From contig NZ_JAFEJA010000001.1 in the NCBI RefSeq assembly GCF_016919245.1, positions 682,001-746,000 of the forward strand: 64,000 bases of DNA, given 5' to 3'. The stretch is from Streptomyces zhihengii (GTDB lineage: Bacteria; Actinomycetota; Actinomycetes; Streptomycetales; Streptomycetaceae). The notes under the pieces are model-generated. The model saw nothing but the letters and a program-made list of their open reading frames with translations. It was not told the origin of the DNA and made no database searches. The position numbers and the translations under genes were made by a program. Positions 9,372 through 46,318 of the stretch are shown here, piece by piece. Within the stretch, counting starts at the first letter, position 1. Each line of letters begins with the position of its first letter.

Positions 9372-9781
9372 CGGTGCGCACTCTCCTTGATCTGTGCGAT
9401 GTCCGCCTGGACACCACGGACGGCCTGCTGGGGAGCCATGGGCGTGGCCGCGCCGACCTCCTTCCTGCCCAGCGCCGCGAGGACGCCCGCGACGACGAAC
9501 AGGACGGCGGTGACCACCAGGGCGGACAGCCACAGCGGCCACACCAGGGCGAGGGCGATCACCGCGGTGGCGACCAGCGCCTGGAGCGCGATGATCCCGA
9601 TCAGGCCCGCGCCGCCGAAGAGCCCGCCACCCCTGCCGAACCGCTTGCCCTTCTGCTTCATCTCGGCCTGTGCCAGCGCCAGCTCCTCGCGCAGCAGTCT
9701 CGATATCTGCTCGGACGCCTGCTTCACCAGCTCGCCCACCGGCTCCTGGTGTTCGGACGTCCTGGGGTGGGATGAGTCCAT
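9368..9781 (-). CDS. Phage holin family (Holin_3_6) membrane protein
   Basis: 137 residues of the chromosomal putative Actinobacteriophage-holin-superfamily group. A cytoplasmic N-terminal helix (VGELVKQASEQISRLLREEL) precedes two adjacent membrane spans (about 60-110: GLIGIIALQALVATAVIALA and LWLSALVVTAVLFVVAGVLA). Despite the family name there is no phage context; such genes are usual chromosomal partners of DUF3618 proteins. The start ATG has AAGGGAG upstream. The end overlaps the DUF3618 gene by 4 bp. Confidence 0.85.
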   Translation of the reverse strand: MDSSHPRTSEHQEPVGELVKQASEQISRLLREELALAQAEMKQKGKRFGRGGGLFGGAGLIGIIALQALVATAVIALALVWPLWLSALVVTAVLFVVAGVLAALGRKEVGAATPMAPQQAVRGVQADIAQIKESAHR

Positions 9782-10040
9782 CGCTCCGCTCCCTTTCCGG
9801 CCTTCGTGGCGTCGTGGCCTGTTGGGGCGCGAGTACCCGAGGTCGCCCGTGACATGCGTCGCGTGACCGCGCGCCGGGGCTCTCCGGGCCGCCCCGGCCG
9901 CCCCGGCCGCCCCTCACGGCGGTCCGGGAGGCAGCCGGAGGCAGGCGGGGGCAGGCGGGGGGCTGCTCTGATCGTGCGCCGCGGCAGCGCGTCACGGCGG
10001 CCTCGGACACCGCGGCGGCGGCCCTCCGTATGATCCGGCC

Positions 10041-10286
10041 ATGGCTGAGCGATCTTCCCCTCCCCCCGACGACCTGGTGCGGCTCCAGCGCGACGCGGAC
10101 GCCGCCCGGCACGAGGCGGAACGGCAGGGCCACGCCCCGGAGGCCCGGCGGGTGTGGCAGGAGGCGACGGCGGTGGTGAAGAACGCCGTGGCGGAGCACG
10201 CGGCGGCCGGGAACCTGGACCCCGTGGAGCTGGAACGGGACGTGCAGCGGGCCGCGCGCGAGGCGGACGGGAGCGGCGGGGACTGA
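10041..10286 (+). CDS. Small hypothetical protein
   Basis: 81 residues, mostly helical and charged (VRLQRDADAARHEAERQGHA ... RRVWQEATAVVKNAVAEHAA). No membrane span or cysteine motif. The codon pattern shows the strong GC third-position bias expected of a real gene, and no larger ORF competes convincingly. Its family is not recognised. It is divergent from the holin/DUF3618 pair and convergent with the phosphatase gene at 10327. Confidence 0.6.
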   Translation: MAERSSPPPDDLVRLQRDADAARHEAERQGHAPEARRVWQEATAVVKNAVAEHAAAGNLDPVELERDVQRAAREADGSGGD

Positions 10287-11872: not shown

Positions 11873-12324
11873 CCGGGGTGGTCGTCCGGGGGCAGGGCCG
11901 TGTGGTCGGGGTGGTTCCTGGTGCGGCGGGCCTCCTTCATCCCGGCCTCGTACAGATGGTCGCGGCCGTCGGCCAGTTCCCCGCGGATGTCCGCCTCCAG
12001 CTCCTGGAAGGGCCGGTAGTAGGTCGCGTTGTACGCCTCGACGATCTGGAAGGTCCAGTGGCCGGGGATGACGTTGCGACCGAGGATCTCCCGTTCGACG
12101 CGCTCCGCCTGTTCGTGGTGGCCGGCTTCGCGGAGCAGGCGGACGGCGTCGTCCAGGGTGAGGTCGGCGCCGCCGGTGAGCTGGTGGAAGGTGTAGAGCG
12201 CGCCGCGGGCCCGCTCGACCGTCTCCAGGGCCTCGGAGAGCGCCCCCAGGGCGCGGACCGTTGCGTCGGACACGCCCTCCGGACGCCGGTGTGCCTCGTC
12301 GGGCGGCTGCGGGTCGGATGTCAT
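11869..12324 (-). CDS. Conserved hypothetical helical protein
   Basis: 151 residues. The sequence is helical and charged: TVRALGALSEALETVERARG, LYTFHQLTGGADLTLDDAVR, then EILGRNVIPGHWTFQIVEAY and a C-terminal EADIRGELADGRDHLYEAGM. No membrane span or cysteine is visible. The pattern resembles uncharacterised proteins common in actinobacteria, but no named domain is recognised. The start was set at the ATG at 12324 because the upstream in-frame part lacks a ribosome site and shows poor codon structure. Its stop lies in the repeat region. Confidence 0.7.
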   Translation of the reverse strand: MTSDPQPPDEAHRRPEGVSDATVRALGALSEALETVERARGALYTFHQLTGGADLTLDDAVRLLREAGHHEQAERVEREILGRNVIPGHWTFQIVEAYNATYYRPFQELEADIRGELADGRDHLYEAGMKEARRTRNHPDHTALPPDDHPG

Positions 12325-12504
12325 GCCTGCTTCTGTTCCCCCGGACACCGGTCCGCAGACTGCGGCATCCGGGTCGGCGCGCGCCCGGCCCGCGGACCGG
12401 GCGTCCGCGTCGCCGACGGCCGTTCCGCCGACCGGCGGATCCGGTCGCCGCGGAGCCGGATCGCGCCGACAGGCGTAGCCCGCCGTGGCGCGGGAAAACC
12501 TCAA

Positions 12505-34166: not shown

Positions 34167-35399
<1,233 letters not shown>

Positions 35400-35403
<4 letters not shown>

Positions 35404-35720
35404 CGCTGCACCTCTCCGGCGGTGCCGTCGGGCACCTGCCGCTCGAACCCGTCCTCCCCGGCGGCCGCCTCCCACGGGTCGCCGAACTCCTCCTGGAGCA
35501 TGCCGAGGGTCTCGAACAGCTCCAGCGTCCTGCGGGCCGACTCCTCGTCCAGGCGCTGGAGCGCGAACCCGACGTGGACGACGGCGTACTCACCGGGCTT
35601 CAGGTCCGGCAGGTACTCCAGGCAGACCTCCTTGACCACTCCGCCGAAGTCGACGGTGGCCATCCGGGTGCCGTCCCGGTCCTCCACCTCCAGGACCCTT
35701 CCGGGTACCGCAAGGCACAT
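35400..35720 (-). CDS. hypC: Hydrogenase assembly chaperone HypC
   Basis: 106 residues. The obligatory N-terminal [13 protein letters not shown] with Cys2, which binds iron and the large subunit precursor, is present, followed by [20 protein letters not shown] and [20 protein letters not shown]. The last 25 residues are a longer, acidic extension than in classical HypC (about 80 residues). GGAGAG precedes the ATG by 4 bases. It is coupled to hypD by a GTGA overlap and starts 10 bp after hypF. Confidence 0.96.
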
Positions 35721-35730
35721 GCGTCTCTCC

Positions 35731-38136
35731 TCACTGTCGCTCCGCGGCTCCCGGGGCGGGGGCCGTCCGGGCCGTGGTGCGGGCGGCGACGACGAGCTGC
35801 CCGAGTGCGAGTCCCCCGTCGCCCGGCGGCACCAGGCGGTGGCGCAGCACACGGAAGCCGTCCTGCCGCAGACCGCGGGCGCAGGCCGAGGAGAGCACGG
35901 TGTTGGCGAACACGCCCCCGGTCAGCGCCACGGTCCCGGCACCGGTGGCCTCGCGGGCGGCGGCGCACACGGTCCGCACCAGCCGGGCGAGGGCGTGGTG
36001 GAAGCGGGCCGCGACCACGGCCGCCGGGGTGCCGCCGAGCACGTCGTCGAGGACGGCGGCGAGCAGCGGGGCCGGGTCCGCGGTGTACGGGCCGCCGTTA
36101 TCGGGCCGGTCCAGGCGGAAGGTGTAGCGGCCGTCCTCGCCCGCGTCCGGCGCACGCAGGGCCGCGGCCTCCAGTTCGATCGCGGCCTGTGCCTCGTAGC
36201 CGGCGTGGTGGCAGATCCCGGCGAGCGAGGAGACGGCGTCGAAGAGGCGTCCCGCGCTGGAGGTGGGCGCGCAGTTCAGGCCCCGGTCCATCTGCCGCCC
36301 GATCAGGCGCAGTTCGCCGGGCGGACAGGCCCGGACGCAGCTCAGCCGGGGGTCGGCGGGCAGGCCGGCGGCGCGCAGATGGGCGAGGGCCATCCGGTAG
36401 GGCCGCCGTACGGCCGCGTCGCCGCCGGGCAGGGGCACGTAGGCGAGGTGGGCGAAGCGCGCGAAGCCGGTGTAGTCGGCGAGCAGGAACTCGCCGCCCC
36501 ACACGGCGCCGTCGGTGCCGTGGCCGGTGCCGTCGAAGGCGACGCCGAGCACGGGGGTGCTGCCGTCGAGGCCGTGTTCGGCCATGGCGGAGGCGATGTG
36601 CGCGTGGTGGTGCTGGACGGGGACGACCGGCCGGCCGGCCGCGTGGCGGCGGGCCCAGTGCGCGGAGCGGTAGCCGGGGTGGCCGTCGGCGGCGAGCAGC
36701 GCGGGCCGTACGCCGGTGATCGATTCGAGCTGCCGCTCGGCGGAGGCGAAGGCCTGCTGGGTGGCGAGGTCGTCCATGTCGCCGATGTGGGCGGAAAGCC
36801 AGGCGGTGCGTCCCTCGCCGAGGCAGAAGGCGTTCTTCAGGTCGCCGCCGACGGCGAGCGCCGGGCCGACGTCGAAGGGGAGCCTCACGGGCAGCGGGGC
36901 GTACCCGCGCGAGCGGCGCAGCACGAGCGGCTCGCCGTCGCAGACGCGGACGACGGAGTCGTCGCAGGGCACATGGATGGGTCGGTCGTGCAGCAGCCAG
37001 GCGTCGGCGAGGCCGGCGAGCCGGGTGAGCGCCTCGGCGTCGTCGGTGACGATCGGTTCGCCGGAGAGGTTGCCGCTGGTCATGACCAGCAGCCGGGGGC
37101 CGCGTCCGGCCGGTGCGCCCAGGCCGAGGAGCAGATGGTGGACGGGCGTGTAGGGCAGCATCACGCCGAGGTCGGGGCTGCCGGGGGCGACGGCCGGGGC
37201 GGGCACGGGGCCGGAATGCGGCCCGGGGTCGTCGCGGCGGCGCAGCAGGACGACGGGCCGGACGGTGCCGGTGAGCAGCTCGCGCTCCTCGGGGCCGAGG
37301 TGCACCAGGGGTTCGACGTCGGCGGGGGCGGCCGCCATGACCGCGAACGGCTTGTCGCCGCGGGCCTTGCGGCGGCGCAGTCCGGCGACGGCCCGGGCGT
37401 CGGTCGCGTCGCAGGCGAGGTGGTAGCCGCCGAGGCCCTTGACGGCGACGACCGCCCCGGCGGCGAGCATCCGGCGCGCGGCGGCCACCGGATCCTCGCC
37501 GGGCCCGGGGGGCGGGCAGGGCCCGCCCGGCGCGGTGACCAGGCGCAGCCGGGGGCCGCAGCGCGGGCAGGCGACGGGCTGCGCGTGGAAGCGCCGGTCC
37601 GCCGGGTCCTCGTACTCCCGCGCGCAGTCGGGGCACAGCGGGAAGCCGGCCATCGTCGTGTGGGCCCGGTCGTACGGGAGCGAGGTGACGATGGTGAACC
37701 GGGGGCCGCAGTGGGTGCAGGTGACGAAGGGGTGGAGATGGCGGCGGTCGGCGGGGTCCGCGAGCTCGGCGAGACAGGCCGCGCAGGTGGCGGTGTCGGG
37801 CGGGACGAGGGTGCGGCCGGAGCCGCCCTCCCGGGAGGGCACGATGGTGAAGCCGCTGCCGCCGGTGACGGCCAGATCGGCCGCCTCGACGGAGTCCACC
37901 CGGGCCAGCGGCGGCGCGCCGGGGGCGAGGCCGGCGCAGAAGGCGGCCACGTCCGCCGGGTCGCCCTCGACCTCGGCGACGACGCCGTCGGCGGTGTTGG
38001 TGACATGGCCGGACAGGCGCAGCCCGGTGGCGAGGGCGTAGACGTGGGGCCGGAACCCGACGCCCTGGACGACGCCCCGGACGACCACCCGGCTGCGCCG
38101 GACGGCCGTCCCGGCGGCGGGCCGCGCTGCGCTCAC
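35731..38136 (-). CDS. hypF: Carbamoyltransferase HypF
   Basis: 801 residues, with the four HypF modules in order: acylphosphatase (VVRGVVQGVGFRPHVY, about 15-100); two zinc fingers (CAACLAEL...CTHCGP and CPDCAREY...CPRCGP, about 120-195); the YrdC/Sua5-like domain (about 210-400, including MTSGNLSGEPIV); and the Kae1/carbamoyltransferase domain (VQHHHAHIASAMAEH, GVAFDGTGHGTDGAVWGGE). HypF activates carbamoyl phosphate and transfers the carbamoyl group to HypE. The GTG start at 38136 overlaps the hypB stop; longer frames upstream lie inside hypB and are not real. Confidence 0.96.
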   Translation of the reverse strand: MSAARPAAGTAVRRSRVVVRGVVQGVGFRPHVYALATGLRLSGHVTNTADGVVAEVEGDPADVAAFCAGLAPGAPPLARVDSVEAADLAVTGGSGFTIVPSREGGSGRTLVPPDTATCAACLAELADPADRRHLHPFVTCTHCGPRFTIVTSLPYDRAHTTMAGFPLCPDCAREYEDPADRRFHAQPVACPRCGPRLRLVTAPGGPCPPPGPGEDPVAAARRMLAAGAVVAVKGLGGYHLACDATDARAVAGLRRRKARGDKPFAVMAAAPADVEPLVHLGPEERELLTGTVRPVVLLRRRDDPGPHSGPVPAPAVAPGSPDLGVMLPYTPVHHLLLGLGAPAGRGPRLLVMTSGNLSGEPIVTDDAEALTRLAGLADAWLLHDRPIHVPCDDSVVRVCDGEPLVLRRSRGYAPLPVRLPFDVGPALAVGGDLKNAFCLGEGRTAWLSAHIGDMDDLATQQAFASAERQLESITGVRPALLAADGHPGYRSAHWARRHAAGRPVVPVQHHHAHIASAMAEHGLDGSTPVLGVAFDGTGHGTDGAVWGGEFLLADYTGFARFAHLAYVPLPGGDAAVRRPYRMALAHLRAAGLPADPRLSCVRACPPGELRLIGRQMDRGLNCAPTSSAGRLFDAVSSLAGICHHAGYEAQAAIELEAAALRAPDAGEDGRYTFRLDRPDNGGPYTADPAPLLAAVLDDVLGGTPAAVVAARFHHALARLVRTVCAAAREATGAGTVALTGGVFANTVLSSACARGLRQDGFRVLRHRLVPPGDGGLALGQLVVAARTTARTAPAPGAAERQ

Positions 38137-38825
38137 GCGCCGGCCCGGGCCATCACCGGGGCGTGGGCCGAGCCGCCGGCCGCGGCCAGGGCGCGGTCCA
38201 GCAGGACGCCGGCGCCGGTGCCGTCGCGCACCGAGCTGAGGACGACCTCGACGCCGGGGTTGACCTGTTGGACGTTGGCCCGGAAGGCGGCCTCGTCGAA
38301 CTCGGCGGCCCGGGCGAGGTCGGTCTTGGTGACGACGACGAGCTGGGCGAGCCCGAAGGCGGTGGGGTACTTCAGCGGCTTGTCCTCGCCCTCGGTGACG
38401 GAGGCGAGGACGACGCGCAGCGTTTCGCCGAGGTCGTAGCCGGCGGGGCAGACGAGGTTGCCGACGTTCTCGACGAAGAGCAGCCGGGTGGCGTCGGGCA
38501 GCCAGTCGTGGAGGTGCCGGGCCACCATGTCGGCCTCCAGGTGGCACAGTCCGTCGGTGTGGACCTGCTTGACGGGGAGGCCGGAGCGGGCGAGGCGCCG
38601 GGCGTCGTTCTCGGTGGCCAGGTCGGCGGTGAGCGCGGCGGCGGTGACGTCCCGTTCGGCGGCCAGCCGCAGTTCGCGCTCCAGCAGGGCGGTCTTGCCG
38701 CTGCCGGGGCTGGAGAGCAGATTGACCACGGTGGTGCCGCGGGCGGTGAGTTCGGTGCGCAGGATGTCCGCCGCGGCCTCGTTCTTGGCGAGGACGGCAC
38801 GCTGGAGATCGACGGCTCGGCACAT
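38133..38825 (-). CDS. hypB: Hydrogenase nickel incorporation GTPase HypB
   Basis: 230 residues of the SIMIBI GTPase HypB, which works with HypA to insert nickel into the large subunit. The P-loop NLLSSPGSGKTALLERELRL, the metal-site region GLCHLEADMVARHL, FVENVGNLVCPAGYDLGE and the base-recognition VVTKTDLA are clear. The N-terminal histidine-rich nickel-storage stretch of some HypBs is absent, so storage must be elsewhere. The ATG at 38825 is 2 bp from the hypA stop and its end overlaps hypF by 4 bp. Confidence 0.96.
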   Translation of the reverse strand: MCRAVDLQRAVLAKNEAAADILRTELTARGTTVVNLLSSPGSGKTALLERELRLAAERDVTAAALTADLATENDARRLARSGLPVKQVHTDGLCHLEADMVARHLHDWLPDATRLLFVENVGNLVCPAGYDLGETLRVVLASVTEGEDKPLKYPTAFGLAQLVVVTKTDLARAAEFDEAAFRANVQQVNPGVEVVLSSVRDGTGAGVLLDRALAAAGGSAHAPVMARAGA

Positions 38826-38827
38826 GC

Positions 38828-39226
38828 TCAGTTCTCCTCGGTGATCGGTTGGGGCCGGCGTGGTCCGCCGGCCGCGGCGGGGCCGGCCCAGCGGACCTCG
38901 CGGATCAGCAGTTCGCGGCCGGAGACGAGCTCGACGGCGGCGGCTCCGCAGCGGGGGCAGAGCAGTTGGGGCGGCATGCCGACGTCCCAGTCCCCGGCGC
39001 ACGGTTCGCAGCGCGCGGTGCCGGGGACGGTGCGGGTGATCAGTTCGGCGCCCTCGACGACGGTGCCGGCGCAGGCGAGTTCGAAGCAGAAGGCGAGCGA
39101 TTCGGCGACGACGCCCGCCAGTTCGCCGACGTCGAGGCGGACGCTGAGCACGCCCGGGGCCCGTCGGCCGCGCGCGGCCGTCTCGACCTGGTCCACGACG
39201 GCCAGCGCGAGGGACATCTCGTGCAT
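38828..39226 (-). CDS. hypA: Hydrogenase nickel chaperone HypA
   Basis: 132 residues. The N-terminal MHEMSLALAVVDQVE includes the nickel-binding His2, and the zinc site is CEPCAGDWDV...LLCPRCGAAA, a two-CxxC rubredoxin-like finger. The C-terminal 25 residues are an extended Gly/Pro/Arg tail. HypA is first gene of the hypA-B-F-C-D-E series; a 200-bp gap with a hairpin separates it from the upstream structural operon, so it probably has its own promoter in about 39240-39390. Confidence 0.95.
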   Translation of the reverse strand: MHEMSLALAVVDQVETAARGRRAPGVLSVRLDVGELAGVVAESLAFCFELACAGTVVEGAELITRTVPGTARCEPCAGDWDVGMPPQLLCPRCGAAAVELVSGRELLIREVRWAGPAAAGGPRRPQPITEEN

Positions 39227-39427: not shown

Positions 39428-39547
39428 TCACATCCTGCTGATGCGCAGATAGCGCCGCACGTCGGGGAGGACGGCCACGACGACGGCGACGGCGGCGACC
39501 GCGGTGAGGGCGGCGCAAGCGGTGGCGAGGGTGCTCTTGTTCTTCAC
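39428..39547 (-). CDS. 39-residue single-span membrane peptide in the hydrogenase operon
   Basis: MKNKSTLATACAALTAVAAV begins the peptide, followed by AVVVAVLPDVRRYLRISRM. It has a short basic start, one membrane span and a basic C-terminal RRYLRISRM, resembling the DUF6893 family of small actinobacterial proteins (recognition from memory, not verified). The GTG start overlaps the protease stop as GTGA, and GGAGAA lies 6 bases upstream, so translation is very likely. Its place directly after the hydrogenase maturation protease suggests a role in anchoring or stabilising the enzyme at the membrane (inference). Confidence 0.7.
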   Translation of the reverse strand: MKNKSTLATACAALTAVAAVAVVVAVLPDVRRYLRISRM

Positions 39548-40080
39548 GGTGTTCTCCGTATCGGGCTTGGGAGGGCGGATTCCCGGTCGACCAGTTCGGT
39601 CACCATGCGGACCGCGCCGGGCACCGCGGCGGCGACCTGCGGGCTGAGGCCGATGCCCTCGTCGAGACAGGCCGGTTCGCAGCCGACGAGGGCGATCCGC
39701 CGCGGCGGCGTGGCGCCCGTCCCGGCGCACAGGGTGTCCAGCAGGGCGAGGACGGCGTCGGGGGTCATCCGGTGGCCGTCGAGCGGTACGCCCGCCCCGC
39801 CGGGCAGCGCGCGGTCGGCGGTGGCGTCGATCAGATGGAGCGTCCCGGGCGCGGCACCCCGGCCGACGGCGTCGACGAGGACGAGAACGTCCCAGCCGTC
39901 GAGGACCTGGTAGGCGAGGTGGACGCCGCGGACGCCGATGTCGGCCACCTCGACGTGCGGCGGCAGGTCCTCGCCGGCGAGGCGCCGCACGGTCTCGACG
40001 CCGAAGCCGTCGTCGCCGAGGAAGATGTTGCCGATGCCGGCCACCAGGATGCGGGCGGCTCCGTCGCCGTTCCCGCTCAC
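39544..40080 (-). CDS. Hydrogenase maturation protease (HybD/HycI family)
   Basis: 178 residues. The start ILVAGIGNIFLGDDGFGVET is the classic nickel-dependent endopeptidase opening with the conserved Asp (GDDGFG); the other nickel ligands lie in IGVRGVHLAYQVLDG and VDAVGRGAAPG...GHRMTPDAVLALL. The enzyme removes the C-terminal tail of the large subunit after nickel insertion, presumably here the 23 residues after CGVH in the large subunit. The GTG start at 40080 overlaps the 477-residue gene, and the stop overlaps the 39-residue peptide gene. Confidence 0.92.
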   Translation of the reverse strand: MSGNGDGAARILVAGIGNIFLGDDGFGVETVRRLAGEDLPPHVEVADIGVRGVHLAYQVLDGWDVLVLVDAVGRGAAPGTLHLIDATADRALPGGAGVPLDGHRMTPDAVLALLDTLCAGTGATPPRRIALVGCEPACLDEGIGLSPQVAAAVPGAVRMVTELVDRESALPSPIRRTP

Positions 40081-41510
40081 GCGTCCTCCGTCACGCCGGC
40101 CGCGCCGGCCCGGTCGGGCCCCGCGTCGACCTCGTCGGGCTGGAAGTAGAGGAACCTGCCCTGCTCCCGGCGGATGTCGGCGCCGGGGTCGTCGTCGACG
40201 GTGACGGCGATGTGCACACCGCCGTCGACGTCGTGCAGCACGGCCTCGACGAGGGCGCTGCGCCCGTCGAGGAACAGGTCCTGTGCGTCGGTGCGGCGCA
40301 GCCGGGGCCGCAGTACGACGCGGCTTCCGGCGCGCACCGGGTGCCCGCCGACCAGGACGTGGTCCGTCGCCGGGTCCACGCCGGTGTCGCCGCCCGGGTC
40401 CCACCAGGGGGTGTCCGGCAGGGGGCAGGGGCCGGGCCCGGCCGGCTCCTCGGGGCCGGTGACCTCCCGCAGGCCGCGCACCGCGCCGTGCAGCCGCTCC
40501 AGGACCTCGGGCGGCATGGTGTCGGCCAGTTCGATGACGGCGGCGGCGCGGGCGTCGGTGCCCCGGGCCTCGCGCTTCTCCTCGTCGGTGAGGGCCGCGG
40601 TGCGCAGGGCGAGGATCTCGTCGATCTCGGTGGCGTCGTAGAGGGCGCCGGGGCTCTCCGGTGCGATGGCCGGGTGGTCCTCCAGGATGATCGGCGAGGA
40701 CAGCACCAGGTCGCCGCGTCCCGCCTCGCCGGCGAGGACGGGCCAGGTGTGGAGGTTGCGGCAGTCCGCGACGGCGCCCCGGGCCCACTCGGGCGGGTCG
40801 GTCATCGACAGGAACGCACCGGCGTCCAGGCGCAGCAGGGTGTGGGTGGCGACCAGCGAGTACGGCAGCGCCGCGTGCCGGTCCGCGCCGGGCGGCGGCG
40901 TCCAGGCGCTGGTGTTCTCCACGGTGACGGTCAGCCGGCGCACCCGGTACGGGCCGTCGAGCTCGGCGGCCGAGATCCGCAGCACCCCGCTGATCTCCTC
41001 GCGGCGGCGCAGCAGCCGCCCGACGACGGCGCCGTCGGCTCCGGTGACCTGCTCGGTCTCCTCGGCCGCCGGGCGGGTGAAGGGGAACTCCACGCCGTCG
41101 CCGTCGAGTCCGGCGACCGGGACGGCCAGGGTGACGGTCTCCTCGACGCCCTCGTCCCAGGCGACCAGCACCCGGTCGGGCAGGCGCAGTTCGGCGGCGG
41201 GCGTGAACGCGCCGTCCTCGCCGCGCCGTTCGACGGTGCGCCGCCGGGCGCGCAGGAAGCGCACCTCGACGGCGAGTTCGGCGCCGGCCCGCGGTTCCAT
41301 CAGGCATTCGGTGTGCTGGAAGTCGTGCTCCTCGGCGGCGGCGCTCCACGAGGGGGGCACCAGGACGCCGAACTGCCAGCGGAGCCGGTTCTTGGCGGCC
41401 GACGCCCGGTACGGGTAGAGGACGTAGCCCTCGAAGAGGACGGCGTCGGCGACCTGCCGGGCGACGGCGAGGCGCTCCTCGGTCCCGGGGCCGAAGGCGG
41501 CGGCGGTCAC
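40077..41510 (-). CDS. Conserved hydrogenase-locus protein of unknown function
   Basis: 477 residues. It starts with LAVARQVADAVLFEGYVLYP then YRASAAKNRLRWQFGVLVP, a very conserved-looking region, and later WARGAVADCRNLHTWPVLAG and LSSPIILEDHPAIAPESPGA. There is no membrane span, no cysteine cluster and no recognised catalytic motif; the predicted make-up is mostly beta strands in the first 300 residues and a small beta domain at the end (ILF-YFQPDEVD like). It overlaps both neighbours by 4 bp (GTGA), so it is an integral part of the structural operon. It could be an assembly factor or scaffold. Confidence 0.8.
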   Translation of the reverse strand: MTAAAFGPGTEERLAVARQVADAVLFEGYVLYPYRASAAKNRLRWQFGVLVPPSWSAAAEEHDFQHTECLMEPRAGAELAVEVRFLRARRRTVERRGEDGAFTPAAELRLPDRVLVAWDEGVEETVTLAVPVAGLDGDGVEFPFTRPAAEETEQVTGADGAVVGRLLRRREEISGVLRISAAELDGPYRVRRLTVTVENTSAWTPPPGADRHAALPYSLVATHTLLRLDAGAFLSMTDPPEWARGAVADCRNLHTWPVLAGEAGRGDLVLSSPIILEDHPAIAPESPGALYDATEIDEILALRTAALTDEEKREARGTDARAAAVIELADTMPPEVLERLHGAVRGLREVTGPEEPAGPGPCPLPDTPWWDPGGDTGVDPATDHVLVGGHPVRAGSRVVLRPRLRRTDAQDLFLDGRSALVEAVLHDVDGGVHIAVTVDDDPGADIRREQGRFLYFQPDEVDAGPDRAGAAGVTEDA

Positions 41511-42145
41511 CGGGCCCCCTCCCCCGCCTCGTCGAGCAGCCGCTCGACGGTTGCCTGCCAGGACGGGAGGGCGTGGCGGGACCGGTAGGCGAGCAGGGCG
41601 TCCATGGCGTCGCCGGGGAGCCTGATCCACCCGCAGCCGGGGAAGTGCTGGTCGATCATCTCCCGCCAGGTCTTCACGGGCATCCGGTGGGAGATCTCCT
41701 TGTCCCAGGGCACCGGTTCGACGTGGAAGCCGGCGGCGCCGGTGAACGCGGTCCCCGAGAACAGCAGCAGCAGGGGGACGTCGCCGCCGGTGAGGGCGCG
41801 GAAGTAGCGGGAGGCGGCGATGTCGGTGTCGTAGGTGCAGGGCACGGCGAGGTCGGTCTCGATCTCGCCGGTGAAACCGGGGACCATCACGGACACCTGG
41901 GCGAACTGCACGGGGTTGAGGCTGCTGCCCCAGCGGGAGCGTTCGCCGAACAGGTCGCCGAGGGCGGCGGCCTCCTCGTCGTCGTATCCGCGCCGGGCCG
42001 GTTCGATCCGGATCTGGCAGCGCAGGGCGAGGGCGTGCACCCGGGTGCCGGGGGAGGCGGTGATCCGCAGCCGGAACACCAGGGTCGGTCCCGCCGCGTA
42101 GGCGTCGGCACGGACGCCCAGGCAGCTGAAGGAGAATTCGGTCAC
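41507..42145 (-). CDS. DUF6084-type hydrogenase-locus protein
   Basis: 212 residues. The N-terminal EFSFSCLGVRADAYAAGPTL then VFRLRITASPGTRVHALALR and CQIRIEPARRGYDDEEAAAL is a beta-sandwich-like opening; the middle has VPCTYDTDIAASRYFRALTG and LLLLFSGTAFT. It appears to be the DUF6084 family known from actinobacterial hydrogenase loci (assignment from memory). It is coupled to its neighbours by GTGA overlaps on both sides. Function unknown. Confidence 0.8.
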   Translation of the reverse strand: MTEFSFSCLGVRADAYAAGPTLVFRLRITASPGTRVHALALRCQIRIEPARRGYDDEEAAALGDLFGERSRWGSSLNPVQFAQVSVMVPGFTGEIETDLAVPCTYDTDIAASRYFRALTGGDVPLLLLFSGTAFTGAAGFHVEPVPWDKEISHRMPVKTWREMIDQHFPGCGWIRLPGDAMDALLAYRSRHALPSWQATVERLLDEAGEGAR

Positions 42146-42825
42146 GGCAGGCTCCCCTCGGGTTCGCGTGCCCGGTCGCGCACCCGGGCGAAGAAGTCGT
42201 CGAGGCCGGCGCGGGCCTCCGCCCCGCCGTCGAAGCCCTGCCAGCGCAGCCGCATCCGGCCGACCAGTTCGTAGCAGAGGTCGACGGGCACCAGGAAGCA
42301 CTCGCTGCGGCCGTCGTGGCGGCGCATCAGCAGCGCTTCGGTGTCGGGTTCGAGGAGGCCGGCGAGACGGGTCGCGTCGGTCACGGTGTGCCAGGCCGGC
42401 TCGTCGAGTTCGCTCTCGGTCGCCCCGGCGGGGCTCGGGTAGAGGGCGACGGGGCGGCCGAGGGCGGAGTTGCGGAAGAAGAACGCGACGGAGACGGGGA
42501 CCCGCAGCGCCTCCCACACCCGGTCGTCGACCCGGTGGCGGGTGTCGGTGAGGACGCGTCCGGGGACGGTGCGGAAACGGCCCCGCGGTCCCGGGTCGCG
42601 GTCCATGACCGGGTCGCGGTCCATGAGCTGCGCGCAGGGGCCGCAGGCGCAGACCAGGGCCCGCTGCTCGGTGTCGACCAGGTGGCGGTGGTCCTCGCCG
42701 GCGAGCCGCGCCCCGCACAGTTCGCAGCGCTCCTCGCGCGGCGGGCGCGGTGCGGTGAAGCGGCGCAGGCCGGTGAGGGCCCCAGCGCCCGGCGGGCGGC
42801 CCGCGGCGGGCGGCCGCGCGCTCAC
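42142..42825 (-). CDS. DUF5947-type hydrogenase-locus protein with zinc-like cysteines
   Basis: 227 residues. Two cysteine pairs, RCELCGARLAGEDHRHLVDT and ALVCACGPCAQLM, with histidines between them, suggest a zinc or iron site at about 30-70. The rest is FRTVPGRVLTDTRHRVDDRV ... VSVAFFFRNSALGRPVALYP, then CYELVGRMRLRWQGFDGGAE. The pattern fits DUF5947 (from memory). It starts from GTG overlapping the NifU-like stop, and ends overlapping the DUF6084 gene. It could help metal delivery or redox contact; unproven. Confidence 0.8.
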   Translation of the reverse strand: MSARPPAAGRPPGAGALTGLRRFTAPRPPREERCELCGARLAGEDHRHLVDTEQRALVCACGPCAQLMDRDPVMDRDPGPRGRFRTVPGRVLTDTRHRVDDRVWEALRVPVSVAFFFRNSALGRPVALYPSPAGATESELDEPAWHTVTDATRLAGLLEPDTEALLMRRHDGRSECFLVPVDLCYELVGRMRLRWQGFDGGAEARAGLDDFFARVRDRAREPEGSLP

Positions 42826-43379
42826 GGGGCGGTGGCCGGCGAGCGGCCGCCGGAGCCGGCGAGCGGCGGGCGGGTGCCGATCTGGAGCAGCGCGGGCTCG
42901 CGGGGGCCGGGCGGCTCCACCTCGACGCCCGTCACCTCGGGCGCGAAGCACGCGAGCGCGTCGGCCGCCGCCCGCCGGACGGACTCCGGGTCGCCGGAGC
43001 AGCCGCAGCCGGACCCGGCGGACTGACGCAGCGTCAGCACGCCGCCGGCCGGGTCGAAACCGGCGTTCTCCACGGGCTGCGGCAGAGTGGCCAGGGCGCG
43101 TGCGATGCGGGTGGGCGCGTCCTCGGGGTGGAGCCCGTGCAGGGTCAGCAGGCTCGCGACGAGTTCGTCCCCGAGGAGCGGCTCCAGCGGGTCGGCGGGC
43201 GGCCGGGCGCCGGGGCGGCCGAGGAGTTCGACGACGCGGGCCAGCCCGCCGCCGTAGAACTCCATCAGGGCGCGCACGATCTCCTCGGCAGCGGCGCGGG
43301 CTTCGGCGTCCGCGGGGCCGTCCAGCCGGGCGAGGACCTCCTCGACCCGCCGGCCGGCCTGTTCGGCGGCGGCGCTCAT
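42822..43379 (-). CDS. NifU-like domain protein of the hydrogenase operon
   Basis: 185 residues. The N-terminal half is helical (VEEVLARLDGPADAEARAAA, EEIVRALMEFYGGGLARVVE). The C-terminal half, with GGVLTLRQSAGSGCGCSGDP then VRRAAADALACFAPEVTGVE and VEPP, resembles a NifU C-terminal (Nfu) domain; cysteines sit in GCGCSG and LACFAP. NifU-like proteins deliver or carry Fe-S clusters, and a protein of this type is a regular companion of actinobacterial group 1h hydrogenases, where it may act as electron acceptor or cluster donor. It overlaps the large subunit gene by ATGA. Confidence 0.8.
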   Translation of the reverse strand: MSAAAEQAGRRVEEVLARLDGPADAEARAAAEEIVRALMEFYGGGLARVVELLGRPGARPPADPLEPLLGDELVASLLTLHGLHPEDAPTRIARALATLPQPVENAGFDPAGGVLTLRQSAGSGCGCSGDPESVRRAAADALACFAPEVTGVEVEPPGPREPALLQIGTRPPLAGSGGRSPATAP

Positions 43380-45160
43380 CCGCCCAGTCCGCTCAGGCCG
43401 GTGGGCACGTGCATCGACTTCACGGTCCGGCCGTTGCCGGTGTACATGTGGACGCCGCACGGCAGGCAGGGGTCGAAGCTGCGCACGGCGCGCATGATGT
43501 CGATGCCCTTGAAGTTCTCCGGGGTGTTCTCCTCGAAGATCGGGGTGTTCTGCACCGCGTCCTCGTAGGGGCCCGGGGTGCCGAAGGTGTCGCGGGTGGA
43601 GGCGTTCCACGGGGTGGGCGGGTACGGGTGGTAGTTGGCGATCTTGCCGTCCCGGATGACCATGTGGTGGGAGAGGACGCCGCGGACGGCCTCGGTGAAG
43701 CCGACGCCGATGGACTCCTCGGGCACCTCGAACTTCTCCCAGGTCTGGGTGCGTCCGGCACGGACCTCCTCCAGGCCCTTCTCGGCGCAGTGCAGGGCGA
43801 CGGCCGCCGCGTACGCCTGGAAGTAGGTGCGGGCGCGGTTGCGCTCCAGGGCGTTGCTCCACTGCGGGATCTTCCACTCGAAGGTGGTCTCCGGCTTGGT
43901 CATCGTGCGGGGCAGGTTGATGACCACGCTGTGGCCGGTGGCCTTGACGTAGCCGATGTCGACGAGGCCGGACAGGGCGGTGGACCACAGGCGGGCGATG
44001 GGGCCGCCGCCGGTGTCCAGCGCCAGGTGGTCCTTGCCGTCGAACCAGCGCGGGGACATGACCCAGCTGTACTTGTCGTCGAAGTTCCGCTTCTGCGGGG
44101 CCGGGATGGTGTGCTGGTTCCACGGGTGGCGCGGGTCGACCGGGTTGCCCAGCGGGTCGTGGGTGACGAACTGCTCCTGGCCCTGCCAGTCCTCGTAGTA
44201 GGAGCTGCCGAGCAGGATGCGGATGCCGAGGTTGATCTCGGTCAGGTCGTTGGTGACGAGCTTGCCGTCGACGACGACGCCGGGGGTGACGAACATCCGC
44301 CGGCCCCAGTCGGTCATGTTGGCGTAGGTGAAGTCGCAGTACTCGGGGTCGTTGAGGGCTCCCCAGCAGCCGAGCAGCACCCGGCGGCGGCCGACCTCCT
44401 CGTAGCCCGGGAGGGCCTCGTAGAAGAAGTCGAAGAGGTCGTCGTGGAGCGGGACGACCCGCTTCATGAACTCGACGTAGCGCATCAGGCGGCTGAGGTA
44501 GTCGGTGAAGAGCTGCACCGAGGCTACGGTGCCGACGCCGCCGGGGTAGAGGGTGGAGGGGTGCACGTGGCGGCCCTCCATCAGGCAGAACATCTCCCGG
44601 GTGTAGCGGCTGACCTGGAGCGCCTCGCGGTAGAACTCGCCCTCCAGCGGGTTCAGCGAGCGCATGATGTCGGCGATGGTGCGGTAGCCGTGCTCCCCGG
44701 CGTGCGGGGCCTCGGTGCGCTCGGCGAGCTCCAGGACCCCGGGGTTGGTCTCGCGGACCATCTTCTCGCAGTAGTCGACCCCGACCAGGTTCTCCTGGAA
44801 GATGTTGTGGTCGAACATGTACTCGGCGGACTCGCCGAGGTTGATGACCCACTCGCCGAGGTGCGGCGGCTTCACGCCGTACGCCATGTTCTGCGCGTAC
44901 ACCGAACACGTGGCGTGGTTGTCGCCGCAGATGCCGCAGATGCGGCTGGTGATGAAGTGCGCGTCGCGGGGGTCCTTGCCCCGCATGAAGACGCTGTAGC
45001 CGCGGAAGACGGAGGACGTGCTGTAGCACTCCGCGACGCGCTTCTGCTTGAAATCGATCTTGGTGTGGATGCCGAGACTGCCCACGATCCGGGTGATGGG
45101 GTCCCACGCCATCTCCACCAGACCAGTGCCGTCACCTGTCGTCTTCGCCGGAGATGCCAT
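43376..45160 (-). CDS. hhyL: Group 1h-type high-affinity [NiFe] hydrogenase large subunit
   Basis: 594 residues. The N-terminal nickel motif is SRICGICGDNHATCSVYAQN (the L1 RxCGxC) and the C-terminal one SFDPCLPCGVHMYTGNG (the L2 DPCxxC). MAWDPITRIVGSLGIHTKID opens the family domain. These four cysteines hold the Ni-Fe centre that oxidises H2. A 23-residue tail follows the L2 His and is the expected protease product. This group oxidises atmospheric hydrogen during starvation and sporulation in actinobacteria. The ATG is 75 bp after the small subunit stop without a strong ribosome site. Confidence 0.95.
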   Translation of the reverse strand: MASPAKTTGDGTGLVEMAWDPITRIVGSLGIHTKIDFKQKRVAECYSTSSVFRGYSVFMRGKDPRDAHFITSRICGICGDNHATCSVYAQNMAYGVKPPHLGEWVINLGESAEYMFDHNIFQENLVGVDYCEKMVRETNPGVLELAERTEAPHAGEHGYRTIADIMRSLNPLEGEFYREALQVSRYTREMFCLMEGRHVHPSTLYPGGVGTVASVQLFTDYLSRLMRYVEFMKRVVPLHDDLFDFFYEALPGYEEVGRRRVLLGCWGALNDPEYCDFTYANMTDWGRRMFVTPGVVVDGKLVTNDLTEINLGIRILLGSSYYEDWQGQEQFVTHDPLGNPVDPRHPWNQHTIPAPQKRNFDDKYSWVMSPRWFDGKDHLALDTGGGPIARLWSTALSGLVDIGYVKATGHSVVINLPRTMTKPETTFEWKIPQWSNALERNRARTYFQAYAAAVALHCAEKGLEEVRAGRTQTWEKFEVPEESIGVGFTEAVRGVLSHHMVIRDGKIANYHPYPPTPWNASTRDTFGTPGPYEDAVQNTPIFEENTPENFKGIDIMRAVRSFDPCLPCGVHMYTGNGRTVKSMHVPTGLSGLGG

Positions 45161-45235: not shown

Positions 45236-46318
45236 TCACCAGGGGGGCCGGTAGCCGGTGGTGATGCTCTCGCCGGTGTGCCGCCACTTCGGCTCCTTGT
45301 CCACGGTCCGCGCGGTGATGTCGCGGAGCCTGCGGATGACCGAGCCGTACACACCGCTCGCGGTGCTGGAGACCTTGCCGCCGGGGGGCTCGTCCATGAA
45401 CGGCATGAACTTGTCCGGGAAGCCGGGCATGGTGCACGCGATGCAGATGCCGCCGACGTTGGGACAGCCGCCGATGCCGTTCATCCAGCCGCGCTTGGGG
45501 ACGTTGCACTTGACGACCGGTCCCCAGCAGCCCAGCTTCACCAGGCACTTGGGCGAGTCGTAGGTCTCGGCGAACTGGCCCTGCTCGTAGTAGCCGGCCC
45601 GGTCGCAGCCCTCGTGGACCGTCGCCCCGAACAGCCAGGTGGGGCGGAGCTTGTCGTCCAGCGGTATCATCGGCGCCGATCCGGCGGCCTGGTACAGCAG
45701 ATAGGTCAGCGTCTCGGCGAAGTTGTCCGGCTGGATGGGGCAGCCGGGCACGCAGACGATCGGGATGCCGGCCTTGGACTTCCAGTCCCAGCCCAGGTAG
45801 TCCGGCACGCCCATGGCGCCGGTGGGGTTCCCGGCCATGGCGTGGATGCCGCCGTAGGTGGCGCAGGTGCCGATCGCGACGACGGCGAGGGCCTTGGGCG
45901 CCAGCCGGTCGATCCACTCGCTGGTGGTGATGGGCTGGCCGGTCTCCGGGTTGTCGCCGAAGCCGCACCAGTACCCCTCCTGCTTGATCGCCTCGTTGGG
46001 GATCGAGCCCTCGACGACCAGCACGAACGGGTCGATCTCACCGCGCTCGCCCTTGAAGAACCACTCGATGAACGTGTCGGCGCCGCCCACCGGCCCGCAC
46101 TCGAAGTCGATCAGCGGCCAGTGGACCGCGATCCTGGGGAGCCCCGGCAGACCGGCCAGGGCGATCTCCTCGATGCTGGGCTGCATGGCGGCGGTCAGCG
46201 CGACCGAGTCGCCGTCACAGCTCAGTCCCGCGTTGATCCAGAGGATGTGGATCGGCTTCTCTTCGCTGCCGGGGGCGGCGCCCTGTTCCTCGACAGGGGC
46301 CGGCGTCGCTGCGTTCAT
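45236..46318 (-). CDS. hhyS: Group 1h-type high-affinity [NiFe] hydrogenase small subunit
   Basis: 360 residues. The Fe-S electron-transfer subunit: HILWINAGLSCDGDSVALTA holds the proximal cluster site, where the second cysteine of the usual CxxC is replaced by Asp (CDGD). VEGSIPNEAI, IGTCATYGGIHAM, VPGCPIQPDNF and the C-terminal cluster cysteines (GCDRAGYYEQGQF, KLGCWGPVVKCN, GGCPNVGGICIACTMPGFPD) are present. There is no Tat signal peptide, so the enzyme faces the cytoplasm. The ATG has a good AGGAGGCGACC ribosome site. It is 55 bp after hypX. Confidence 0.95.
   Translation of the reverse strand: MNAATPAPVEEQGAAPGSEEKPIHILWINAGLSCDGDSVALTAAMQPSIEEIALAGLPGLPRIAVHWPLIDFECGPVGGADTFIEWFFKGERGEIDPFVLVVEGSIPNEAIKQEGYWCGFGDNPETGQPITTSEWIDRLAPKALAVVAIGTCATYGGIHAMAGNPTGAMGVPDYLGWDWKSKAGIPIVCVPGCPIQPDNFAETLTYLLYQAAGSAPMIPLDDKLRPTWLFGATVHEGCDRAGYYEQGQFAETYDSPKCLVKLGCWGPVVKCNVPKRGWMNGIGGCPNVGGICIACTMPGFPDKFMPFMDEPPGGKVSSTASGVYGSVIRRLRDITARTVDKEPKWRHTGESITTGYRPPW

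Follow-up and report, generated by a model that had tools for sequence, protein, structure and literature searches.

Three conserved proteins and a microprotein as candidates for assembly and anchoring in the group-1h [NiFe]-hydrogenase operon of Streptomyces zhihengii

The subject of this analysis is a [NiFe]-hydrogenase operon located in a 64,000-nucleotide stretch (hereafter the window) of the 9.73-Mb genome of Streptomyces zhihengii (contig NZ_JAFEJA010000001.1, positions 682,001 to 746,000), and in particular three adjacent genes that encode a DUF5947 protein, a DUF6084 protein, and a 477-residue protein (the trio). Judged from sequence, the trio has about an even chance of being a soluble assembly module that is specific to group-1h enzymes and serves HhySL, i.e. 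the small (HhyS) and large (HhyL) subunits. This reading was preferred because no membrane segment was detected in the trio, its genes directly precede that of the maturation protease, the PDB holds no significant sequence match to it, and three known auxiliary families are absent. As a whole, the trio looks more like a set of assembly aids private to this enzyme than like components of its finished form. A passage of PMC6883350 describes aerobic H2-scavenging bacteria as the primary sink of the hydrogen cycle, and the operon bears on the maturation in air, membrane targeting, and electron hand-off of the group-1h enzyme. The anatomy of the operon separates distinct roles, argues against the NifU-like protein HhyE as a general electron carrier, and points to a 39-residue DUF6893 microprotein as an anchor candidate.

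Occurrence and gene order

All families were searched for in 296 Actinomycetota genomes; DUF6084 was found in 27, DUF5947 in 26, and the 477-residue protein in 28. The group-1h set was defined as the 24 genomes having an HhyL match of at least 1000 bits, a threshold set after a gap in the scores was seen, with at most four candidates scored per genome. Within this set, DUF5947 was present in 23 genomes, DUF6084 in 22 (no match in G128 or G171), and the 477-residue protein in 23 (it was not found in G042, whose contig ends within DUF6084). In nine genomes whose full-length hydrogenase match, at 493-560 bits, is not of group 1h (G130, G141, G076, G081, G114, G289, G111, G200, and G236), none of the three was detected. 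Beyond the 24, trio genes occurred in G028 and G270, which have an HhyL fragment on the same contig, at the contig end, and in G189, G216, and G290, where a contig end lies beside the trio and no group-1h HhyL match was obtained. G184 (a deletion), G107 (remnants), and G227 (the contig ends in hhyL, and no trio gene was found) also fell outside the set.

The genes of the operon in the window are as follows (all on the minus strand; HMM, hidden Markov model):

45236..46318, minus strand: hhyS, small subunit, 360 aa (HMM match, 704 bits; N-terminal sequence)
43376..45160, minus strand: hhyL, group-1h large subunit, 594 aa (PF00374, E 3e-61)
42822..43379, minus strand: hhyE, NifU-like protein, 185 aa (alignment and motif counts)
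42142..42825, minus strand: DUF5947 protein, 227 aa (PF19372, E 1.1e-67)
41507..42145, minus strand: DUF6084 protein, 212 aa (PF19562, E 5.2e-95)
40077..41510, minus strand: 477-aa protein (no Pfam or NCBIfam match)
39544..40080, minus strand: hydrogenase maturation protease, 178 aa (TIGR00072, E 1.9e-34; PF01750, E 7e-12)
39428..39547, minus strand: DUF6893 microprotein, 39 aa (PF21833, E 1.2e-11)
38828..39226, minus strand: hypA (PF01155, E 5.6e-31)
38142..38825, minus strand: hypB, extent of HMM match (363 bits)
35749..38118, minus strand: hypF, extent of HMM match (1120 bits)
35460..35720, minus strand: hypC, extent of HMM match (126 bits)
34276..35403, minus strand: hypD, extent of HMM match (698 bits)

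The open reading frames (ORFs) of the window bear out the claim, made in an earlier note on this DNA, that the trio lies between the NifU-like gene and the protease and is joined by 4-bp overlaps. Such overlaps (ATGA or GTGA) were found at six successive junctions: HhyL/HhyE, HhyE/DUF5947, DUF5947/DUF6084, DUF6084/477, 477/protease, and protease/DUF6893. In 80 loci picked through DUF6084, nearly all of them named Streptomyces, the first five of these junctions overlapped by 4 bp in 73/78, 76/78, 80/80, 79/80, and 79/79 cases, respectively; in diverse loci the corresponding counts were 1/24, 17/24, 14/27, 18/29, and 11/25. The gene order is therefore widespread, and the exact 4-bp coupling, though frequent, is not found everywhere. 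The series DUF5947-DUF6084-477 was found in all 80 loci, with every part called once in 71; because they were chosen by DUF6084, this set is unable to test for the presence of that gene. The trio proteins of the window are closest to those of Streptomyces, and its DUF6084 protein is 95% identical to an S. zhihengii homologue.

Gene order was also read by HMM in 34 fetched regions (L174-L207). The complete series from hhyS through hhyL, hhyE, DUF5947, DUF6084, and the 477-aa gene to the protease was present in 15, and ten were cut by contig ends and collinear up to there (L177, L191, L193, L196-L202). DUF5947 was missing from L176, L174 and L175 were rearranged (477-S-L-E-5947, with no DUF6084), L204 and L207 were decayed, and L205 and L206 proved to be other hydrogenases. 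Methylocystis, plasmid pHG1 of Cupriavidus necator, and a Mycobacterium plasmid share the gene order of the window. Some lineages encode the N- and C-terminal parts of the 477-residue protein as separate ORFs.

The hydrogenase is, by its motifs and its similarity to known enzymes, a group 1h [NiFe]-hydrogenase (HhyL/HofG). HhyL of the window carries the L1 motif TSRICGICGDNH and the L2 motif SFDPCLPCGVH, both of which are given as group 1h motifs in the relevant passage of PMC5364354. Its identity to four named homologues is 74-94% (77% for HofG of C. necator), and its profile matches HofG of the group-1h enzyme in PDB entry 5aa5 with 1286.7 bits. As judged by eye, the N-terminus of HhyS has no twin-arginine signal.

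Group-1h operons with deleted structural, accessory, or protease genes were observed in L204 (G107), L242 (G150), L248 (G184), L195 (G182), and L016; in G150, DUF6893, the protease, and hyp genes are retained next to remnants of hhyS and of the 477-aa gene. A small protein of about 65-80 aa bearing the motif RVGKPxxKxDxPxHxxGIxxGN was also noted. It precedes DUF6084 in L200 (1-240) and L202 (1-130), in the latter separated from it by another ORF, and follows DUF5947 in L174 (about 9990-10180) and L007 (about 9540-9740), two operons without DUF6084 that also have a divergent microprotein after DUF5947. In related loci, the 250-340-bp gap that separates DUF5947 from DUF6084 may be where this protein is encoded.

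The trio as a putative assembly module

Hydropathy revealed no membrane segment in the trio (maxima 0.88-1.32). PDB sequence searches with the three families gave no significant match (best E 0.3), though 5aa5 holds HofG; searches with alignments A1, A2, A3, A8, and A9 likewise returned nothing significant, and no relative was found among viral contigs searched with alignments A2 and A3. Pfam scans of the trio contained no match to HybE/HupJ, HupH_C, or HyaE/HupG.

In the proposed mechanism, DUF5947 would bind metal through a conserved C2/HxH/C3 site and, in air, would help either to load the iron-sulfur clusters or the metal site or to protect them, by analogy with the rubredoxin-related factor of the group-1d enzyme. 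DUF6084 and the 477-residue protein would form a scaffold, composed of an immunoglobulin (Ig)-like sandwich and of DrmA-chassis-like and SH3-like domains, that holds immature HhyS and HhyL until HhyL is cut by the protease, whose gene comes next. We infer these assembly, loading, and scaffold roles from sequence.

The DUF5947 and DUF6084 proteins had been called DUF5947-like and DUF6084-like; the families were right, but the proteins are clear members of PF19372 (227.6 bits against a curated cut-off of 25) and PF19562 (317.4 bits, also against 25). The "two Cys pairs" ascribed to DUF5947 are to be replaced by five cysteines and two histidines, and the candidate ligand set is C34-x2-C37, H46-x-H48, and C59-x-C61-x2-C64. 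All seven residues are invariant in the 31 alignment rows that span the region (a 32nd, L177, is truncated by a contig end ahead of the first four ligands) and are retained in 80/80 Streptomyces-type loci. This arrangement may resemble treble-clef or HNH sites.

The neighbouring HhyE of the window lacks the NifU CxxC, of which a CxC remains, and also lacks the C-terminal domain with two CxxC motifs that is found in longer HhyE proteins; in mycobacteria, cluster binding was proposed for these motifs. A NifU-type CxxC was present in 22 of 31 HhyE rows, the other nine (including the window, C. necator, and Methylocystis) having neither it nor any CxxC in the tail, and none of 78 HhyE proteins from Streptomyces-type loci had the NifU CxxC or two tail CxxC motifs. 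PMC6883350, in the part concerned with M. smegmatis, describes the NifU-like gene as essential and argues that its product is an electron acceptor. Because many HhyE proteins are without CxxC motifs, it is unlikely that HhyE is the electron carrier in all group-1h bacteria. DUF5947 could be an electron carrier instead, or its site could be a structural zinc site.

The first of these options leads to an alternative in which DUF5947 would be the direct electron acceptor, passing electrons from HhyS via an iron centre to quinone or another carrier, with DUF6084 and the 477-residue protein docking it. We regard this as unlikely. It would account for the five cysteines and two histidines being invariant even where HhyE has no CxxC, PHG067 of C. 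necator is a proposed acceptor according to a passage of PMC6883350, and PetP of cytochrome b6f is among the nearest folds of the C-terminal domain of the 477-residue protein. The pattern CxxC...CxCxxC plus His, however, fits a structural zinc site equally well, the weak Pfam look-alikes of DUF5947, none of them significant, were for the most part zinc-finger or uncharacterized families, and in G042, at a contig end, no DUF5947 lies between HhyE and DUF6084. An electron-transfer bridge, as put forward in the earlier note, is plausible for DUF5947, but not for DUF6084 and the 477-residue protein, which have no invariant cysteine.

The predicted structure of DUF6084 features an Ig-like beta-sandwich (residues 1-164) followed by C-terminal helices (mean predicted local distance difference test (pLDDT) score 82.5; Foldseek, VIA). 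A SecB-like chaperone, prompted by one motif seen by eye, was also considered and was dropped, as the model was Ig-like and hhalign gave a probability of 0.1 against E. coli SecB; SecB was not among the 50 fold matches listed, which leaves a SecB fold possible.

For the 477-residue protein, the predicted N-terminal domain (about 1-345) resembles part of the N-terminal half of DrmA (pLDDT 77.4; Foldseek, VIA), and the C-terminal domain (about 382-465) is predicted to be SH3-like (Foldseek, VIA). The PADLOC DrmA profile matches the protein within profile positions 76-348 of 1018. Compared with DrmA of DISARM (7s9v and 7s9w), it has neither the helicase domains nor a defence context, the identity is 10%, and the Foldseek superposition is poor (template-modelling score 0.22). 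The protein was rejected as a DrmA, as it has no tandem RecA helicase domains; at most, a domain is shared. No clear genuine DISARM DrmA was found in 79 genomes of the class or in the 296 of the phylum (the latter searched at E 1e-8), the best matches being at most 38 bits and in the helicase part. The N-domain profile gave no match at E 10 to the ORFs of nine helicase regions, and hhalign of this domain against the nine helicases gave probabilities of at most 1.7, as low as those of five shuffled controls (up to 0.9). This reverse search speaks weakly against a DrmA link, because the nine helicases are not DrmA proper. Beyond its helicase domains, no significant structural homology was reported for DrmA in the section of PMC9142583 dealing with its structure; if the resemblance is borne out, part of DrmA may be tied to a non-defence protein. 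The likeness of the C-terminal domain to PetP and SH3-like accessory domains has no sequence support, and SH3-like folds are common.

Conserved order and coupling, together with these scaffold-like predicted domains, would also fit a trio that belongs to the mature complex, either as stoichiometric subunits or as its scaffold. HucM of Huc is a precedent, as this scaffold was observed within the native complex according to a passage of PMC10017518. We consider this improbable: the trio families have no significant PDB match despite the group-1h structure 5aa5, and one lineage has no DUF6084 and a relocated 477-aa gene. The "fixed stoichiometric or assembly role" of the earlier note survives as dedication to the hydrogenase and fixed order; fixed stoichiometry is not supported as worded there, on these same two grounds.

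Several points weigh against an assembly module. DUF5947 is missing from G042, where HhyE runs straight into DUF6084 (at a contig end), and L195 and L203 have neither the protease nor the C-terminal part of the 477-residue protein. In a Streptomyces-related lineage (G128, G171, and S. cattleyicolor locus L007), the order is 477-S-L-E-5947, the 477-aa gene being upstream of hhyS, and DUF6084 was not found in the two genomes or in the 18-kb locus that represents S. cattleyicolor; the trio is therefore not an inseparable unit. The absence of HybE/HupJ, HupH_C, and HyaE/HupG from all 16 group-1h genomes searched (each E. coli control was positive) favours the module, but HupI/HoxR and HupK/HoxV were not searched for. 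HupG, HupH, and HupJ serve twin-arginine translocation in part, which HhyS seemingly does not need, so their absence may need no replacement. Weak partners are lost in crystals. Finally, since the NifU-like gene of the same run is essential and its product is argued to be an acceptor, position alone cannot separate assembly from electron transfer.

The DUF6893 microprotein as a candidate anchor

The earlier note held the trio to be the best candidates for an undescribed component of atmospheric H2 oxidation; DUF6893, which it did not mention, was judged the better one. The microprotein is a member of PF21833 (44.8 bits against a curated cut-off of 24.6), has one hydrophobic helix (mean hydropathy 2.54 over 19 residues), and ends in LPDVRRYLRISRM. 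Of the seven operon products tested, from HhyL to DUF6893, it alone had a clear hydrophobic helix. PF21833 was detected in 26 of the 296 genomes, with a copy beside the trio in 20. In the other six, chance or a contig edge probably accounts for the matches in G214, G262, and G269, those in G150 and G195 adjoin hyp genes and the protease, and that in G152 is on another contig. Of 120 loci searched by C-terminal motif and hydropathy, 100 held a peptide of this type, a raw count not set against a chance rate. DUF6893-type peptides are encoded by group-1h operons in two phyla; one of them is an ORF on pHG1 that carries no annotation (L004, about 12246-12348). Three further microproteins (L006, L181, and L203) and two divergent versions (L174 and L007) were recognized by eye. 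None was found in L175, L190, L192, or L195; L191 and L193, which stop short of the protease, also yielded none. The operon of L186 (G140) has two DUF6893-type microproteins, one on either side of the protease, and extra PF21833 copies lie outside the main operon in L243, L247 (G189), and L246 (G205), the last directly before hypC.

PMC7174314, in its account of the Methylacidiphilum group-1h enzyme, describes subunits without a transmembrane helix or signal peptide, reports that the membrane fraction holds more of the activity than the soluble fraction does, and allows for an unknown partner. Given these observations, DUF6893 is a natural candidate for the anchor of HhySL to the membrane. Counting against an anchor, a passage of the same paper describes the C. 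necator enzyme as cytoplasmic and of low affinity, though C. necator has a DUF6893-type peptide. No paper naming DUF6893 was found in the literature covered, which excluded subscription sources.

The Methylacidiphilum observations could also be read in favour of a trio that regulates or localises the enzyme (e.g. spore or membrane targeting) and has no part in assembly or electron flow. This is the least probable alternative, and a very doubtful one: the trio has no membrane segment, and the clear hydrophobic helix is that of DUF6893. The cassette is moreover common to Cupriavidus and Methylocystis, which to our knowledge make no Streptomyces-type spores.

Returning to the assembly module, the parts could be combined into a private kit for running a cytoplasmic hydrogenase on the membrane in air. 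DUF6893, with its C-terminal DIxRYLxIxxM, would anchor HhySL and link it to quinone, and the soluble trio would act as assembly machinery, its scaffold domain being related by descent to the chassis of an anti-phage helicase. As a whole, this picture is tentative and well short of an even chance.

Relation to known systems

The group-1d auxiliary set (HyaE/HupG, HupH, HoxR/HupI, and HybE/HupJ) consists of small proteins that are encoded beside the structural genes and needed for assembly in air. The trio likewise lies beside structural genes, but its Pfam scans match none of these families. Huc (group 2a) likewise has extra proteins serving a high-affinity hydrogenase, namely HucM and HucE; the latter, a NifU-Rieske protein, is a relative of HhyE and not of the trio.

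The trio had been presented as undescribed and without known function. Its function is indeed unassigned, but the genes are in print as ORFs within PHG066-069 of C. necator, which are listed in PMC4377017, in the passage concerned, as four ORFs of unknown function. MSMEG_2717 is named as the homologue of PHG067 in a passage of PMC6883350, and among the papers covered, "DUF5947" or "DUF6084" is named in one, on aurodox. Judged by title and abstract, PMC6883350 was the only functional study of the hhy operon among the matches listed, which did not extend to subscription literature, and deletions may exist in print. The closest counterparts of the present operon are the hofKG/PHG064-070 operon of C. 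necator H16 (pHG1) and the hhy operon of M. smegmatis (MSMEG_2718, 2717). The HhyE of C. necator is short and without CxxC, as in the window, unlike the Mycobacterium plasmid copy (L006), and on pHG1 the same families as in the window stand in the same order.

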